DNA of 64,000 bases from Phreatobacter stygius (GTDB lineage: Bacteria; Pseudomonadota; Alphaproteobacteria; Rhizobiales; Phreatobacteraceae): positions 7,242,873 to 7,306,872 of the forward strand of contig NZ_CP039690.1 of assembly GCF_005144885.1 (NCBI RefSeq). The letters are read 5' to 3'. Position 1 is the stretch's first letter. Every line of letters starts with the position of its first letter. The notes beneath the pieces are model-generated. The model had not been told where the DNA came from. It saw only the letters and a list, made by a program, of their open reading frames with translations, and did not search any database. This document shows positions 24,089-32,103 of the stretch, in pieces. Both the position numbers and the translations under genes were made by a program.

Positions 24089-26515
24089 TCAGTGCGCGAG
24101 CGCGCCGGCCGCGTCGTCATCGCCGGTTTTCGGCGATGCCACGGGCTCCGCCTCCTCGTCCCAGACGATCGGCACGGGCTGCCGGATCAGGGCATGCTTG
24201 AGCACTTCGTCCATGCGCGCGACCGGGATGATTTCCAGCCCGTTCTTCACGTTGTCCGGGATCTCCGCCAGGTCCTTGGCATTCTCCTCGGGGATGAGGA
24301 CAATCTTCAGACCGCCGCGCAGCGCCGCCAGCAGCTTCTCCTTCAGGCCGCCGATCGGCAGCACCCGGCCGCGCAAGGTGACCTCGCCGGTCATAGCGAT
24401 GTCCTTGCGGATCGGAATGCCCGACATGACCGACACGATGGCGGTCGCCATGGCGATGCCGGCCGACGGACCATCCTTCGGGGTCGCCCCTTCCGGCACG
24501 TGGACGTGCACGTCGCGCTTGTCGTAGAGCGGCGGCTTGATGCCGTAATCGATGGCACGCGAGCGGACATAGGATGCCGCGGCGCTGATCGATTCCTTCA
24601 TCACGTCCCGGAGGTTGCCGGTCACCGTCATGCGGCCCTTGCCGGGCATCATCACGGCTTCGATGGTCAACAGCTCGCCGCCGACCTCGGTCCAGGCCAG
24701 GCCCGTCACCGCGCCCACCTGATCCTCGGTCTCCGCCATGCCGTAGCGATAGCGCGGCACGCCGAGATAATCCTCGACCACCTTCGGCGTCACCTTGATC
24801 GTCTTCTTCTTGGTCAAGGTGAGGTCCTTCACGGCCTTGCGGACGAGATTGGACATTTCACGTTCGAGGTTGCGCACGCCCGCCTCGCGGGTATAGCGGC
24901 GGATCACGCTCATCAGCGCTTCGTCGTCGATCGACCATTCCTTCTCCGCCAGGCCATGCTTCTTGATGGCGTTGGGGATCAGGTGCTTCTTGGCGATTTC
25001 GCGCTTTTCGTCCTCGGTATAGCCGGCGATACGGATCGTCTCCATCCGGTCCAGCAGGGCCGGCGGGATGTTGAGCGTATTGGCCGTGGTCACGAACATG
25101 ACGCTCGACAGGTCGAAATCGACCTCGAGGTAATGGTCGTTGAAGGTGGCGTTCTGCTCGGGATCGAGCACCTCCAGGAGCGCCGCCGAGGGGTCGCCCC
25201 GGAAGTCCTGGCCCATCTTGTCGATTTCGTCGAGCAGGAACAGCGGGTTCGCCGTCTTGGCCTTCTTCATCGACTGGATGATCTTGCCGGGCATGGAGCC
25301 GATATAGGTGCGCCGGTGACCGCGGATCTCGGCCTCGTCACGCACGCCGCCGAGCGAGATGCGGACGAATTCACGACCCGTGGCCCGGGCGATCGACTTG
25401 CCGAGCGAGGTCTTGCCGACGCCGGGAGGACCGACGAGGCACAGGATCGGCCCGGTCAGCTTGTTGGCGCGCTGCTGCACGGCCAGGTACTCGACGATGC
25501 GGTCCTTGACCTTGTCGAGCCCGAAATGGTCGTTGTCGAGCGTCAGCTGGGCGCCGGCGAGGTCCTTCTTGATCTTCGACTTCTTGCCCCAGGGCAGCGA
25601 CAGCATCCAGTCGAGATAGTTGCGCACGACGGTGGCTTCCGCCGACATCGGCGACATCTGACGCAGCTTCTTCAGCTCGTGATGGGCCTTGTCGCGGGCT
25701 TCCTTGGACAGCTTGGTCCGCTTGATCTTGTCTTCGAGTTCGACCAGTTCGTCGCGGCCCTCTTCGTCGCCGAGCTCCTTCTGGATCGCCTTCATCTGCT
25801 CGTTGAGATAATACTCGCGCTGGGTCTTCTCCATCTGCCGCTTGACGCGGGTGCGGATCTTCTTCTCGACCTGCAGCACCGAGATTTCGCTCTCCATCAG
25901 GCCGAGCGCCTTTTCCAGGCGCTTGGCGACGTCGAGCGTCTCCAGCACGGTCTGCTTGTCGGAGATCTTGACCGCGATATGGGAGGCCACCGTATCGGCG
26001 AGCTTCGAGGCATCCTCGATCTGGCCGACCACCGAGACGATCTCGGGCGAGACCTTCTTGTTCAGCTTCACATAGCCTTCGAACTCGGTGACGACCGAGC
26101 GCGCCAGCGCCTGGACCTGGACCTTGTCGCCGATCTCGTCGGCCACCACGGTCGCTTCGGCCTCGTAAAAGTCCTCGCGGGTGGAGTAGCCGGCGATCTT
26201 GGCGCGGGTGACGCCTTCGACCAGCACCTTGACGGTGCCGTCGGGCAGCTTCAGCAGCTGCAGGACGCTGGCCAGCGTACCGATGTCATAGATTGCTTCC
26301 GGCGCCGGATCGTCGTCCTGCGCATTCATCTGGGTGGCGAGCAGGATATGCGTTTCGGCACGCATCACCTCCTCGAGCGCGCGAATCGATTTCTCGCGGC
26401 CGACGAACAGCGGCACGATCATGTGGGGAAACACCACGATGTCGCGCAACGGCAGAACGGGGAAGCTCTTGGCTTCGCCGGGGGTGAGGGGCGGACGCTT
26501 CTTGGTCTCGCTCAT
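24089..26515 (-). CDS. lon: ATP-dependent protease Lon
   Basis: A cytosolic AAA+ serine protease of 808 residues that degrades misfolded and regulatory proteins. It has the N-terminal substrate domain ([26 protein letters not shown]), the ATPase module with Walker [10 protein letters not shown] and Walker [12 protein letters not shown], and the protease domain with Ser684 in PKDGPSAGI and Lys727 in GGLKEKLL, the catalytic dyad. Length is normal. Its neighbour clpX is separated here by mobile DNA. A heat-shock promoter would be expected upstream, but I could not identify one securely. Confidence 0.98.
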
Positions 26516-26982
26516 GATGCTTTCGTCCTTTGCTCGACACGCCGTTAAAAACGGCCCTTATGGGCCCGTTCCGACGCGGCGCTCGGATGAACCGGGGCGT
26601 GCACATGCCTGCCACATATGTCGCGCGGGGACGGCGGCGGGAATGAGGCCCTGCTGGGGAGCCGATGCGGCAACCCAAAGGCGCTCGTGGCGCTTGGCCG
26701 ACCCCTGGCATGAACCGTGCCCGGGGGTCTGTCGGTTACCATTAGGTGGCGGTGCACCCATGAGGTGTCAAGGCAGCCGAGGGACCCGTTTGTGCAGCGC
26801 CCACAAGTTGGCCGCCATCGCCCAGGCGCATGGCTCCGCCGAGGCCAAGAGATCGCTCACCAGATCGCCGCCCGATCGCCGCCCGATCGCCCTTGGGGGC
26901 GCCCGCGCAACCCGGCTGAAACAATTGCATTCGGCGGCCACATGACGTGGCGCGGCACGGCGAAACCCTGAAACATTCGCGC
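26516..26982. other. Intergenic DNA upstream of lon, no gene seen
   Basis: About 470 bp between lon and the IS481 element. Open frames here have unconvincing composition and no ribosome binding sites or recognisable motifs. A short 11-bp direct repeat (GATCGCCGCCC, two copies and part of a third) is at about 26862-26890. The lon promoter should lie near the lon end of this stretch. Confidence 0.5.
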
Positions 26983-26988
26983 CCTAGT
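26983..26988 (+). repeat. IS481 target-site duplication, left copy
   Basis: CCTAGT, identical to 28006-28011 on the other side of the element. It matches the NCTAGN target preference known for IS481. Confidence 0.9.
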
Positions 26989-27949
26989 TGTTTAGTCCCG
27001 GCATTTGATGGAGTGGATCGAGCCTGAATCGTTGAGGCTCTGTTGTCCAGAGTTTGCAGATGAATTCGTAGGGTGTGAGGCCCTTGAGGGTCTTCAGCCT
27101 CCGCCCGAAATTGTAGGCGCTGACGAAGTCGGCGAGATGCGCTTCGAACTGCCGGTGGCTGTCGTAGTGGTAACGCTTGACGGTGGCTTCTTTGATGGTG
27201 CGGTTCATGCGCTCGACCTGGCCGTTCGTCCAAGGGTGCTTCACCTTGGTGAGGCGGTGCTCGATGCCGTTCTCCTGGCAGCGCATGCCGAACATGTGCG
27301 TCACGTAGCGCGCCGTCGGACCATCGGCATACCGTGGCGGGAAGGTGAACTGGATGCCGTTGTCGGTGAGAACGGTATGGATCTTGTAGGGGACGGCCTC
27401 GATCAAGGCCGAGAGGAAGGCTGACGCGGAGGTCCGCCCCGTCTTCCTGACGATCTGTACGACGGCGAATTTGCTCGTGCGATCGATGGCGACATAGAGG
27501 TACAGCTTGCCCTCAGCGGTCTGCACCTCGGCGATATCGATGTGGAAGAAGCCGATCGGATAGGATTTGAACTTCGTCTTCGCCGGCTTCTCGCCTTCGA
27601 CCTCGGGCAGGCGGCTGATCCCGTGACGCTGCAGGCAGCGGTGCAGGGATGACCGCGTCAGCGTCGGGATCGTCGGCTGTAGCGCATAGAGGCAGTCGTC
27701 GAGCGGCAGCAAAGTATGCTTCCGGAAGGCGACGATCACGGCCTCTTCCTCAATCGTCAGCACTGTCGAAGTCGGGTTCTTCGGCCCGGTCGGCACATCG
27801 GTCACCGAGGTCCGCTTCTTCCACTTCGCGACCGTCTTCTGGTTAATCCCGTAGCGCTTAGACAGAGCCCTCAGGCTCTCTTGACTATGTTGTATCGCTC
27901 GACGGACCGCCTCAGTCGTCGTGGCGCTCCCGTGGAGAACCTGGCCCAT
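26984..27949 (-). CDS. IS481-family transposase
   Basis: A 321-residue DDE transposase. The N-terminal helix-turn-helix is RRAIQHSQESLRALSKRYGINQKTVAKWKKR. The catalytic core contains FFHIDIAEVQT (first D), VLTDNGIQFT (second D) and HPWTNGQVERMNRTIKEATVKRYHY (E). The C-terminal DFVSAYNFGRRLKTLKGLTPYEFI is typical of IS481. It is intact, so the element may be active. The reading frame runs out of the element: the AAC codon spans the IS end and the stop TAG lies in the duplicated CTAG target. Confidence 0.95.
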   Translation of the reverse strand: MGQVLHGSATTTEAVRRAIQHSQESLRALSKRYGINQKTVAKWKKRTSVTDVPTGPKNPTSTVLTIEEEAVIVAFRKHTLLPLDDCLYALQPTIPTLTRSSLHRCLQRHGISRLPEVEGEKPAKTKFKSYPIGFFHIDIAEVQTAEGKLYLYVAIDRTSKFAVVQIVRKTGRTSASAFLSALIEAVPYKIHTVLTDNGIQFTFPPRYADGPTARYVTHMFGMRCQENGIEHRLTKVKHPWTNGQVERMNRTIKEATVKRYHYDSHRQFEAHLADFVSAYNFGRRLKTLKGLTPYEFICKLWTTEPQRFRLDPLHQMPGLNN

Positions 27950-28011: not shown

Positions 28012-28177
28012 CAGAGGTCACGCCTCGACGAGGAGGACGGGCCGCCGGCCGAACCTGCCAGACCGCTGCATCCCCTCAAGGGATCGCATCGGCCAGGCGG
28101 CAAGGACCGCAGCGACACGGCCAGGATCTCGGCGCGGTTCCTCATTCGGCTTCACAGCAGAACCACGGGAGTGTCCC

Positions 28178-28540
28178 ATGCGCCGCCGCCTTTTCCTTGC
28201 ATCCCTTGCCGCCGCCTCGGTGGTGGTCTCGACCGAAGCCTTCGCCCAGGCCCAGCAGAACTTCTCGCTGGTCAACCGCACTGGCTTCCAGGTCAACGAG
28301 GTCTATGTCAGCCCGTCGGCCAACAACAACTGGGGCCGCGACATCCTCGGCGACGGCGTGATGCCATCCGGCACCCGCCGCAACATCACCTTCCCGCGCC
28401 GGACCCAGGCCTGCATGTTCGACCTGCGCATCGTCTATGACGATGGCGACAAGTCCGAAGCCCGCGAAATCAACCTTTGCCAGGTGAGCAATGTCACGCT
28501 GACCTGGACCGGCCGCGGCACCCGCTTCTCCTACGACTGA
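28178..28540 (+). CDS. Small secreted protein of unknown function
   Basis: A 120-residue exported protein. Residues 1-24 form a Sec signal peptide (RRRLFLASLAAASVVVSTEAFA, cleavage near AQA). The mature part contains FSLVNRTGFQVNEVYVSPSANNNWGRDILGD, then GTRRNITFPRR and a late VTLTWTG strand, with two cysteines (in QACMFD and NLCQV) that could form a disulfide. The 'NRTG..., YVSPS, WG-D-LG' pattern recurs in small secreted alphaproteobacterial proteins, but I know no assigned function. The ATG has GGGAG upstream, and a terminator follows. It lies between an IS and a group II intron. Confidence 0.78.
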   Translation: MRRRLFLASLAAASVVVSTEAFAQAQQNFSLVNRTGFQVNEVYVSPSANNNWGRDILGDGVMPSGTRRNITFPRRTQACMFDLRIVYDDGDKSEAREINLCQVSNVTLTWTGRGTRFSYD

Positions 28541-28575
28541 TCACCTGACCGCTTCCTCCGCAGACCTCCACCTTC

Positions 28576-28606
28576 AGGCGGGCTTCACAAGCCCGCCTTT
28601 CTTTTT
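28576..28606 (+). terminator. Intrinsic terminator of the secreted-protein gene
   Basis: A 10-bp stem (28576-28585 with 28589-28598), a 3-nt loop and a T-rich tract TTCTTTTTG on the plus strand. Confidence 0.9.
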
Positions 28607-28663
28607 GACCGCCTGCCATTTCGGGACGCCCGGCCGGTTTGCAGGTCCAGGCTGTGCCAAATC

Positions 28664-28732
28664 GGCATAGGGGGCGGTCGTTTGACCGCACCCCTGCCAC
28701 ACCACCCGGCATGCGGGTCCGCACCGGGCGGT
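28664..28732 (-). ncRNA. Group II intron catalytic domains V and VI
   Basis: Domain V is a 32-nt hairpin with 9 closing pairs (ACCGCCCGG with CCGGGTGGT on the minus strand) and an inner GCGG/CCGC helix. Domain VI pairs GGCAGGGG with CCCCCTATGCC around GCGGTCAAACGACCGC and leaves an unpaired A as the likely branch point. Both look intact. Confidence 0.82.
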
Positions 28733-28746
28733 TCGAGAGATTGAGG

Positions 28747-30108
28747 TCAGGCGAGCCTGGGCATTCCCAGTTGGTCGGCCCATTTGATCGTGAGGACTGA
28801 GTTGAGGAGCATCCCGCTGTTGCGCCACCAGCAGCGGGAGTTTCCCGCTACCTTCTGAGCGACGTTGGGTTTGGCTCCCATCGCTATCAGCTCCCGAAGG
28901 ATTGTCCTGCCCCGCTTCCAGTGCTTGAGCTGGATGGCCCGCAAGCGATGACGCATCCACTCGTCCAGCTCGCGCCAGACCTTGGGTGTTTGCGCCAGTC
29001 GGAAGTAGGCTTTCCACCCCAGCACGAAGGAGCACAACCGCGCCGTCACCGCTGTTAACGATCGCCCGGTCACCCGGGGTGTCAGTTCACGGATCCGGGT
29101 CTTGAACGCCTTGATCGCCTTGTCGGCGACCCGCCGTTTGACCACCCGACCCGGCGCCACCCAGAAGGCGTAGCCGAGAAAGCGGCGGCCGAAGACGGAA
29201 GCCACGGCACTCTTGGTCTCGTTCACCGTCAGATGAAGCCGGCCGTAGAGTCGTCGCAGCAGAGCCATGACCCGCTCGCCCGCCCGCCTGGACCGCACAT
29301 AGACGTTGCTGTCGTCGGCATAGCGGCAGAAGGCATGGCCGCGTCGTTCAAGCTCCTTGTCCACCTCGTCGAGCAGCACGTTGGCCAGCAGCGGTGACAG
29401 CGGGCCACCTTGCGGCGTGCCCCTGGTCCGCTTGATGACCGCATCCCCATCAACAATGTCAGCGTTCAGGAAGGCACGGACCAGACGGATAACGCCGGGA
29501 TCCGGGACCTTCCGGCGCAGACGATCGATCAGGATGTCGTGGTCCACCCGGTCGAAGAACTTCTCCAGGTCGACATCCACCACAACCCGCCGCCCGGACT
29601 GCACGAACGATTGCGCCGCCAAAACGGCATCGTGTGCGCGTCTGCCCGGGCGGAAGCCGTAGCTGTGCTCGCTGAAGGTCGGATCAAGGATCGGCTGCAG
29701 GACTTGCAGGAGCGCCTGTTGGATCAGGCGATCCAGCACCGTCGGGATGCCGAGCTCGCGCTCGCCTCCCCCCGGCTTCGGGATCATCACGCGACGCACC
29801 GGCTGCGGCTGGTACGTCCCCTTCAGCAGACTGTCGCGGATCACGGACCAGTCGGTTCGCAGCATGCTGGCCGTCTGGTCGATATCCAGACCATCCACGC
29901 CTGCCGCACCCTTGTTGGCGCGCACCTGCTTCAAGGCCCGCAGAAGGTTCTCTCGCGCCAGAACCGCTTCGAGCAGTCCCGGCCCCGTGTCGTTCCTGGT
30001 CCGGGGCGGGGGCGCGGCTTCGTCGAGACAGGAGCCCGAGCGGGCTTCACCCGTTCGCCTCTCCCGCTTCCCGGGCGTACCCGGCATCTGACGCATGGCC
30101 TTGCTCAT
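28747..30108 (-). CDS. ltrA: Group II intron reverse transcriptase/maturase
   Basis: A 453-residue intron-encoded protein. Its RT blocks are complete: VRANKGAAGVDGLDIDQ, GIPTVLDRLIQQALLQVLQPILDP, SYGFRPGRRAHDAV, VVVDVDLEKFFDRVDHD, the TRGTPQGGPLSPLLANVLLDEVDKEL block and the catalytic RYADD. A maturase (X) region follows, with LRAIQLKHWKRGRT and the NSRCWWRNSG end. No H-N-H endonuclease is present. The ATG at 30108 was chosen because the sequence upstream is intron RNA; a frame extending to 30267 would need a TTG. It promotes splicing and mobility of its host intron. Confidence 0.93.
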   Translation of the reverse strand: MSKAMRQMPGTPGKRERRTGEARSGSCLDEAAPPPRTRNDTGPGLLEAVLARENLLRALKQVRANKGAAGVDGLDIDQTASMLRTDWSVIRDSLLKGTYQPQPVRRVMIPKPGGGERELGIPTVLDRLIQQALLQVLQPILDPTFSEHSYGFRPGRRAHDAVLAAQSFVQSGRRVVVDVDLEKFFDRVDHDILIDRLRRKVPDPGVIRLVRAFLNADIVDGDAVIKRTRGTPQGGPLSPLLANVLLDEVDKELERRGHAFCRYADDSNVYVRSRRAGERVMALLRRLYGRLHLTVNETKSAVASVFGRRFLGYAFWVAPGRVVKRRVADKAIKAFKTRIRELTPRVTGRSLTAVTARLCSFVLGWKAYFRLAQTPKVWRELDEWMRHRLRAIQLKHWKRGRTILRELIAMGAKPNVAQKVAGNSRCWWRNSGMLLNSVLTIKWADQLGMPRLA

Positions 30109-30499
30109 CCTTGGGGGAACTTCACTCTCTCTCGTTCGGTCCTTCGCCGACGGTGGCCCGCCGGCTACTACGACCTCGGCTGACTTCTCGCTCCGGTTCG
30201 ACACCGTCGCCCTTTCAGGCACGAGGCGAGATCTCCCCAGGTAAGAACGCAATCCTTCCCCGCACAAACGCCGGATTTACGTCATCGAGCCTTGACCACA
30301 AGGGCTTTGCGGTTCGTTGCCCGCTCGCCCTGCTCGACACCGCCTTCTATCCGGTTCTTGTCCATCGTCTCGCGGGTTACGCTCCACGCTTCCTCCCCAC
30401 GGTCGGTCGCCCTTCCGCAGTTGCGCTTCGCTTCGTTCGCTGTGGCCAGCTTACGGGAGGACTTCCACCTCCAAGATTGCGCCCATGCTGGGCGCACAA

Positions 30500-30530
30500 C
30501 GAAAAAGGCGGGCTCTTGCGGCCCGCCTTT
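30500..30530 (-). terminator. Intrinsic terminator of clpX, used as intron insertion site
   Basis: A perfect 10-bp stem (30521-30530 with 30504-30513) with a 7-nt loop, followed on the minus strand by TTTTTCGTT. The group II intron begins at the next base (30497). Confidence 0.93.
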
Positions 30531-30555
30531 CCCAGATCTCGCCGGTCGCAGCGCC

Positions 30556-31812
30556 TCAGGCGCTCGCAGCCTTTTCCTTCTCCGAATAGATGTAGAGCGG
30601 GTGCGCCTTGCCCTGCACCACCTCGTCGGAGATGACCACCTCCTCGACGCCTTCCAGCCCCGGCAGGTCGTACATCGTGTCGAGCAGGATGCTCTCCATG
30701 ATGGAACGCAGCCCACGCGCGCCGGTCTTGCGGTCGATCGCCTTGCGGGCGACCGCGCCGAGCGCGTCCTCGTGGAACGACAGGTCGACATTCTCCATCT
30801 CGAACAGCCGCTGATACTGCTTCACCAGCGCGTTCTTCGGCTCGGTCAGGATGCGCTTCAGCGCCGTTTCGTCGAGGTCTTCCAGGGTTGCCAGCACCGG
30901 CAGGCGGCCGACAAACTCCGGAATGAGGCCATATTTCAGGAGATCCTCGGGCTCGACCTCGCGGAAGATCTCGCCGGTCCGGCGATCCTCGGGAGCCCGC
31001 ACCTTGGCGCCGAAGCCGATCGAGGTGCCCTGCCCCTTGGTCGAGATGATCTTTTCCAGGCCGGCAAAGGCGCCGCCGCAGATGAACAGGATGTTGGAGG
31101 TGTCCACCTGCAGGAATTCCTGCTGCGGATGCTTGCGGCCGCCCTGCGGCGGAACGCTCGCGACCGTGCCTTCCATGATCTTCAGGAGCGCCTGCTGCAC
31201 GCCCTCGCCCGACACGTCGCGGGTGATCGACGGATTGTCCGATTTGCGCGAAATCTTGTCGATTTCGTCAATATAGACGATGCCGCGCTGCGCCCGCTCG
31301 ACATTGTAGTCCGACGCCTGCAGCAGCTTCAGGATGATGTTCTCGACATCCTCGCCGACATAACCGGCTTCCGTCAGCGTGGTCGCGTCCGCCATGGTGA
31401 ACGGCACGTCGAGGATACGGGCGAGCGTCTGCGCGAGCAGCGTCTTGCCCGAGCCGGTCGGCCCGATCAGCAGGATGTTCGACTTCGACAGCTCGACGTC
31501 ATTGTGCTTGGTCGCGTGATTGAGCCGCTTGTAGTGGTTGTGCACCGCCACCGACAGCACGCGCTTGGCATGGAACTGGCCGATCACATAATCGTCCAGG
31601 ACCTTGCAGATTTCCTTCGGCGTCGGAATCCCGTCCTTCGACTTCACCAGCGCGGACTTCGATTCCTCGCGGATGATGTCCATGCACAGTTCGACGCACT
31701 CGTCGCAGATGAACACCGTCGGGCCCGCGATCAGCTTGCGAACCTCGTGCTGGCTCTTGCCGCAGAACGAGCAGTAGAGCGTGTTCTTTGCGTCGCTGCC
31801 GGCCTTGCTCAT
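30556..31812 (-). CDS. clpX: ATP-dependent Clp protease ATP-binding subunit ClpX
   Basis: A 418-residue AAA+ unfoldase that feeds substrates to ClpP. The N-terminal zinc-binding domain has the four cysteines ([12 protein letters not shown]...[10 protein letters not shown]). Walker A is [12 protein letters not shown] and Walker [11 protein letters not shown]; the ClpP-contacting IGF loop reads SIGFGAKV, and sensor motifs are present. The ATG at 31812 ([14 protein letters not shown]) has GGAG 7 bases upstream and fits the family start. It follows clpP after 291 bp, which may hold its own promoter. Confidence 0.98.
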
Positions 31813-32103
31813 CTGTCTCTCCACGCGAACCCACGAAACATGTGGGCCCTTTGATACGAGGCATCCCCCTTTCGGGATCGCCTCCTGAGCTCTCGGATCC
31901 GGGCCCGTCCACCGGGGGTCGATTAGCCAACCATGGTGGCCTGACCCGGATCAAGAAATGATTAACGCTATTTCGTCACGCATGAGGGGCCGGTAAAGCC
32001 CGTCACACGCCATCGTGAGACGATCCTGTGACACTAAGCAATCTTTGGGCCGCAGGATGTGTCCCAAAAGTGACACGATAGCGGCGACCGCTCAGTGTCG
32101 GTC

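Follow-up and report, generated by a model that had tools for sequence, protein, structure and literature searches.

Class C (group IIC) introns are described as splicing with the assistance of their protein, recognizing a hairpin together with IBS1, reverse-splicing at such sites, and then being copied (excerpts of PMC4424553, PMC7161350, and PMC3522654). Such introns are transcribed solely if RNA polymerase fails to stop at the terminator, a presumed self-regulation that has been in print since 2012; occupancies of 4% and 11% are given there for two class C introns (the same excerpt of PMC3522654). The boundary consensus printed for the class reads 5′ GUNYGCCNRGCAUGG and 3′ CCUACYCGAU (PMC4028801, in the section available). 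The IIC intron of Oceanobacillus iheyensis splices hydrolytically, and branch spacing is given as one of the changes by which a hydrolytic IIC intron came to branch, with an Azotobacter vinelandii intron as the model and A.v.I2 named as a branching IIC intron (PMC7161350, excerpted text). In Sinorhizobium meliloti, the replicon pSymB of GR4 bears one class C intron (protein WP_015243078.1), according to the accessible part of PMC5894124, which also supplies the class labels that we use for the GR4 and RmInt1 proteins.

In the window (the whole 64,000-nucleotide stretch of Phreatobacter stygius DNA analyzed here), we find an element that is almost certainly a complete group IIC (class C) intron, probably mobile in the recent past, which by analogy with its family would splice via its own maturase and reverse-splice behind terminator-type hairpins. 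It occupies 1,837 bp of the minus strand (30497..28661) and starts 3 bases past the TTTTTC of the clpX terminator. Judged from its sequence, it is an ordinary but well-preserved intron of a known bacterial kind and apparently intact. No report of this copy at the clpX terminator was found in the literature searched.

Among described introns, the class C intron of GR4 pSymB is one of the closest. We take it to be our locus L145: once three 439-amino acid copies that fit RmInt2 in number are set aside, pSymB has no intact group II protein other than that of L145, which is therefore the candidate left by exclusion (PMC5894124, in part). The L145 protein is 70.4% identical to the maturase of the window intron, and the two introns share the type of 5′ start, the 3′ end TATGCCGAT, and a hairpin with a T-tract ahead. 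Unlike the window intron, that of GR4 is a single intact copy of its type on the plasmid, and its 5′ exon ends differently, which implies a different EBS1. Two copies in Azotobacter vinelandii CA (L044 and L107) likewise lie behind terminators and encode proteins of ∼70% identity; L044 has the same layout of domains V and VI, whereas EBS1 and IBS1 differ from those of the window intron. The best solved-structure match of the maturase is the GsI-IIC RT (PDB code 6ar1; 437 bits), a likeness between proteins, with host and sequence being different. We take the source organism of GsI-IIC to be Geobacillus. The Oceanobacillus iheyensis intron shares the CGC triad and a two-base bulge of domain V (PMC6868427, excerpted text), its bulge being AC and that of the window intron AU. 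RmInt1 (class D) is also a mobile group II intron of an alphaproteobacterium, but its protein is only 33% identical and falls outside the class C clade.

Location and boundaries of the intron

The intron and its immediate surroundings comprise the following features.

28661..30497, minus strand: complete, almost certainly group IIC (class C) intron (5′ GTGCGCC, 3′ CCTATGCCGAT; seven copies, the L117 empty site, and a six-copy comparison)
30498..30502, minus strand: IBS1, TCGTT, in the 5′ exon ((T/G)(C/T)GTT common to 7/7 copies)
28660..28660, minus strand: base 1 of the 3′ exon, T (presumed IBS3; T in 7/7 copies, EBS3 candidate weak)
30507-30527, minus strand: core of the clpX terminator hairpin, with AAA upstream to 30530 (fold, 0/200 shuffles as stable; conserved at the L117 empty site)
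30556..31824, minus strand: clpX, upstream of the terminator (open reading frame; DNA matches in 38 of 41 genomes)

On the minus strand, the 5′ junction (30498/30497) reads AAAGGCGGGCCGCAAGAGCCCGCCTTTTTCGTT followed by GTGCGCCCAGCATGG, and the 3′ junction (28661/28660) reads CCCCCTATGCCGAT followed by TTGGCACAG. These junctions define an intron of 1,837 bp (28661-30497), flanked by a 5′ exon that ends with TTTTTCGTT and a 3′ exon that begins with TTGGCACAG. The two ends follow from seven genomic copies, in which the common stretch is exactly the intron plus only target-matched bases, and again from the empty site of a congener (L117), which reads TTTTTCATT + TTGGCACAG. The first-pass annotation had an intron beginning with GTGCGCC exactly behind the clpX terminator, which the copies and the empty site confirm. 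Of the span that it gave (28661-30530), the lower limit holds; the upper limit takes in the terminator hairpin and has to be moved to 30497.

A 3′ end at ...CCCCCTAT, which would leave no branch bulge, was tried and rejected, as all seven copies share a further GCCGAT. With this GCCGAT, the helix of domain VI is complete and one A bulges out, and we therefore placed the 3′ end at 28661.

The order of elements on the minus strand is hairpin, TTTTTC tract (30501-30506), GTT, and intron. With hairpin and T-tract intact ahead of the intron, clpX keeps its terminator, as had been proposed. A scan for consensus terminators did not list this terminator, probably because its stem greedily absorbs the T-tract.

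Domains of the intron RNA

The RNA domains were assigned as listed here.

30245..30416, minus strand: part of domain I, Rfam group-II-D1D4-3 (RF02001; 117.5 bits, E 1.9e-23)
30139..30228, minus strand: rest of the D1-D4 core, Rfam group-II-D1D4-1 (RF01998; 49.3 bits, E 7.5e-6)
30314..30318, minus strand: EBS1, AACGA, in a domain I loop (complementary to IBS1; covaries over 69 sites)
28701..28732, minus strand: domain V (fold; 13 pairs, 99.8% of cells paired in 36 sequences)
28730-28728 and 28712-28711, minus strand: CGC triad of domain V, with G-U at its center, and AU bulge (triad roles from an excerpt of PMC6868427)
28663..28699, minus strand: domain VI (fold; 15 pairs, 7 changed on both sides)

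A covariance search had been suggested as a check on domains I–IV, and Rfam indeed placed parts of them (RF02001 and RF01998). Domains V and VI matched no Rfam model even at E≤5 and were therefore placed by folding and covariation. Some weak names do appear in the E≤5 list (mir-2241, suhB, STnc320, STnc250, and others); all of them fall far short of the respective gathering score, and we regard them as chance matches.

The fold of domains V and VI has a z of -4.45, and none of 200 shuffles is as stable. When the window sequence was aligned with 35 of 56 distinct relatives, 99.2% of 1,008 cells were paired, and 10 of 28 pairs had changed on both sides. None of 500 shuffles reaches the observed pairing, and slid partners pair at 37–50%. 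The domain V triad is C-G, G-U, C-G in all 36 sequences, together with the two-base bulge. Intact domains V and VI, read from the letters alone in the first pass, are thus well supported by fold and covariation. In domain VI, a UA bulge presents an A at 28668, 7 nt before the 3′ end, which is the presumed branch point.

The maturase and class assignment

The intron carries the following coding frame.

28747..30108, minus strand: intron-encoded reverse transcriptase/maturase, 453 amino acids (ATG at 30108; frame open to 30267; TIGR04416 387.5 bits, cut-off 300)

The frame is intact, with YADD and with RVT_1 and GIIM domains, in agreement with the RT/maturase announced by the earlier reading. 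RVT_1 and GIIM are its only Pfam matches; no match to an endonuclease domain was found. After the GsI-IIC RT, the next solved-structure matches (308 and 256 bits) are to what we take to be IIC proteins. Outside IIC, group II intron proteins match with 139 and 126 bits at best, the labels IIC, IIB, and IIA being our assumption.

The maturase is 32.7% identical to the RmInt1 protein, and the proteins of RmInt1, RmInt2 (both class D), and a class E piece are all ∼33% identical to it. In a phylogenetic tree, 12 class C-like rows, the maturase among them, group together at 99/97; the class E row is a 332-amino acid open piece only and has a very long branch. At the level of the RNA, the 5′ end GTGCGCCCAGCATGG (30497-30483) fits the class C consensus, whereas the 3′ end CCTATGCCGAT is one base longer than the consensus (PMC4028801, in the section available). 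This 3′ end, TAT(G/C)CCGAT, has equal length in 36 of 36 aligned sequences. Protein identity, the tree, the GsI-IIC RT match, the domain V triad, and the hairpin sites described below thus agree on the class C identity that had been assigned at the outset.

Copies in the genome and the empty site

The first-pass annotation had proposed a search for other copies next to terminators, and six more were found, all behind hairpins. Eight matches in the same assembly represent seven copies, namely the window copy, five other full-length copies, and one more that is broken in two. Each of the seven begins with GTGCGCC and ends with TATGCCGAT followed by T, and their flanks otherwise differ. The six full-length copies are 1,837 bases each and show 0–2 differences, confined to positions 293 and 938, and the 453-amino acid frame is preserved in every one of them. 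In the seventh copy (L014/L015, G000:C1:2354087-2357325), an insertion with a gene for an IS256 family transposase separates the two pieces. Nine intron bases (1114-1122) are present on both sides of this insertion, and a 4-base deletion lies further on. The split copy sits between what we take to be a CarD-like frame and a sigma-factor-like frame.

In the congener G003, clpX is 95% identical in DNA and is followed by an empty site, ...GCCCGCCTTTTTCATTTTGGCACAG (L117). This site corresponds to the two flanks of the window intron joined together, with one base different beside the junction and with neither duplication nor deletion. No intron match was reported in 11 same-genus genomes. Most simply, these species had already diverged when the intron arrived, and its copies are young.

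Target sites and exon pairing

A scan found 473 relatives, 80 of which were kept. A recognizable 5′ end and at least 45 bases upstream were available for 62 of the 80, which together with the seven own copies gave 69 sites; the other 18 were omitted, their 5′ end not being found or lying at a contig edge. Because several relatives share one genome (e.g. Lautropia, Burkholderia), the sites are not fully independent.

All seven own copies are preceded by a hairpin of 9–19 pairs that ends 1–8 bases ahead of the intron. Hairpins of at least 5 bp ending within 12 nt are found at 68 of the 69 sites (80 of 473 relatives sampled), compared with 37% of 335 control windows from the flanks, and in this sample the median hairpin energy of the 69 sites is reached by 0 of the 335 control windows. 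The one exception, L052, lies near a contig end and has no adjacent hairpin. These counts substantiate the terminator targeting that had been proposed for the intron. Insertion at terminators reportedly goes back to Robart 2007 as the founding paper. One of the own sites, L013, features a hairpin without a good T-tract.

Six of the seven own copies are located 53–62 bases past the stop of a sense frame. These frames are clpX, a long low-complexity protein frame, a dihydroxy-acid dehydratase, two outer-membrane-type frames, and a CarD-like frame. The dehydratase was named by database match; the CarD-like and outer-membrane-type frames gave weak or no match, and their names are partly our assumption. 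For the seventh copy (L010), the nearest long sense frame lies 660 bases upstream.

The 5′ exon ends with (T/G)(C/T)GTT in 7/7 own copies and is complementary to EBS1 (AACGA). Over the 69 sites, EBS1 and IBS1 pair at 296 of 345 positions (mean of 189.2 and maximum of 216 in 5,000 shuffles). When only one site per distinct EBS1 is considered (40 sites), 164 of 200 positions pair (shuffled mean 105.2, maximum 127). Ten of the 69 sites pair at fewer than four of the five EBS1 positions. This covariation is strong evidence that EBS1–IBS1 pairing helps choose the insertion site. A candidate for EBS3 (position 221) pairs in 35 of 58 cases compared with 23.9 after shuffling, which is weak, the position being the second best column scanned.

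In two relatives (L054 and L077), the 3′ end of the intron is directly followed by the apparent start of another such intron, and in L098 the 5′ flank is itself an intron 3′ end. These junctions suggest tandem insertion.

A mild peculiarity concerns the bulged A of domain VI, which among the aligned relatives stands seven bases before the 3′ end, one base farther away than the printed class C consensus places it. On account of this extra base, the sub-lineage may differ from most IIC introns and splice on its own RNA through branching, and because of the missing T-tract at L013, it may need only a hairpin and TYGTT directly followed by T, not a working terminator. We put this forward tentatively, as a possibility rather than an expectation.

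Two other identities of the element were considered, and both appear highly improbable. The split copy, with its IS256-type insertion and 4-base deletion, is what one might expect if the intron were a dead relic multiplied by segmental duplication or by another element; however, what the flanks of the seven copies have in common is only the target motif, and the near-identical full-length copies have kept their frame. The element might also be an attC-targeting class C intron, or a class D or E intron, that lies near terminators by chance. Introns that target attC do belong to class C as well (PMC4424553, excerpted text), but the position of six of the seven own copies 53–62 nt past a sense frame argues against an attC target, and no integron gene was seen among the frames examined. 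The low identity (∼33%) of class D and E proteins to the maturase speaks against the other two classes.

Mechanism and expression

As judged from the known family, the intron RNA would be made at a low level and would splice, assisted by its own maturase. The particle formed in this way would reverse-splice into DNA just 3′ of a terminator-type hairpin, choosing targets in which the last bases of the hairpin pair with EBS1 (AACGA with TCGTT) and the next base is T. The inserted intron would then be copied into DNA by the reverse transcriptase.

The first-pass annotation also asked whether the RNA of an intron behind a terminator arises by read-through or from an internal promoter. The question is real but general to class C, and the accessible text of PMC3522654 takes read-through as the source of the RNA; the window intron would probably be expressed in this way from clpX. 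The intron might instead have its own promoter, lying within or close to its 5′ end, but this source seems less probable. Such a promoter would fit the strong, intact terminator that separates clpX from the intron, and a paper cited in PMC4424553 (excerpted text) has as its topic the internal promoters of class C introns of the attC type. Yet a scan of 28500-30700 on both strands found 0 sigma-70-like consensus promoters compared with 0.2 expected, a weak counterargument, as such a scan is uninformative for a high-GC alphaproteobacterium.

Whereas the knowledge of class C introns as a kind is unchanged by this intron, it adds a clean, apparently active, multi-copy example from an alphaproteobacterium. 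The empty site in a congener and seven natural targets sharing one EBS1 make it a convenient test bed, in which recognition of the hairpin can be set against that of sequence and expression behind terminators can be studied.

Neighboring features

Between the intron and lon, the window contains a gene for an IS481 family transposase (26984-27949, minus strand). A small frame convergent to clpX (28171-28606, plus strand) has its own terminator (28576-28598), and similar sequence is found at the same place in the congener locus L117 and in some others. Upstream of lon, a block on the minus strand (26515-26800) is conserved in 11 of 11 matching congener loci and reads CCTTGACACC...GCCACCTAATG...ACCGACAGACC...CGGCCAAGCGC. 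It presumably resembles a heat-shock-type promoter followed by a conserved leader.
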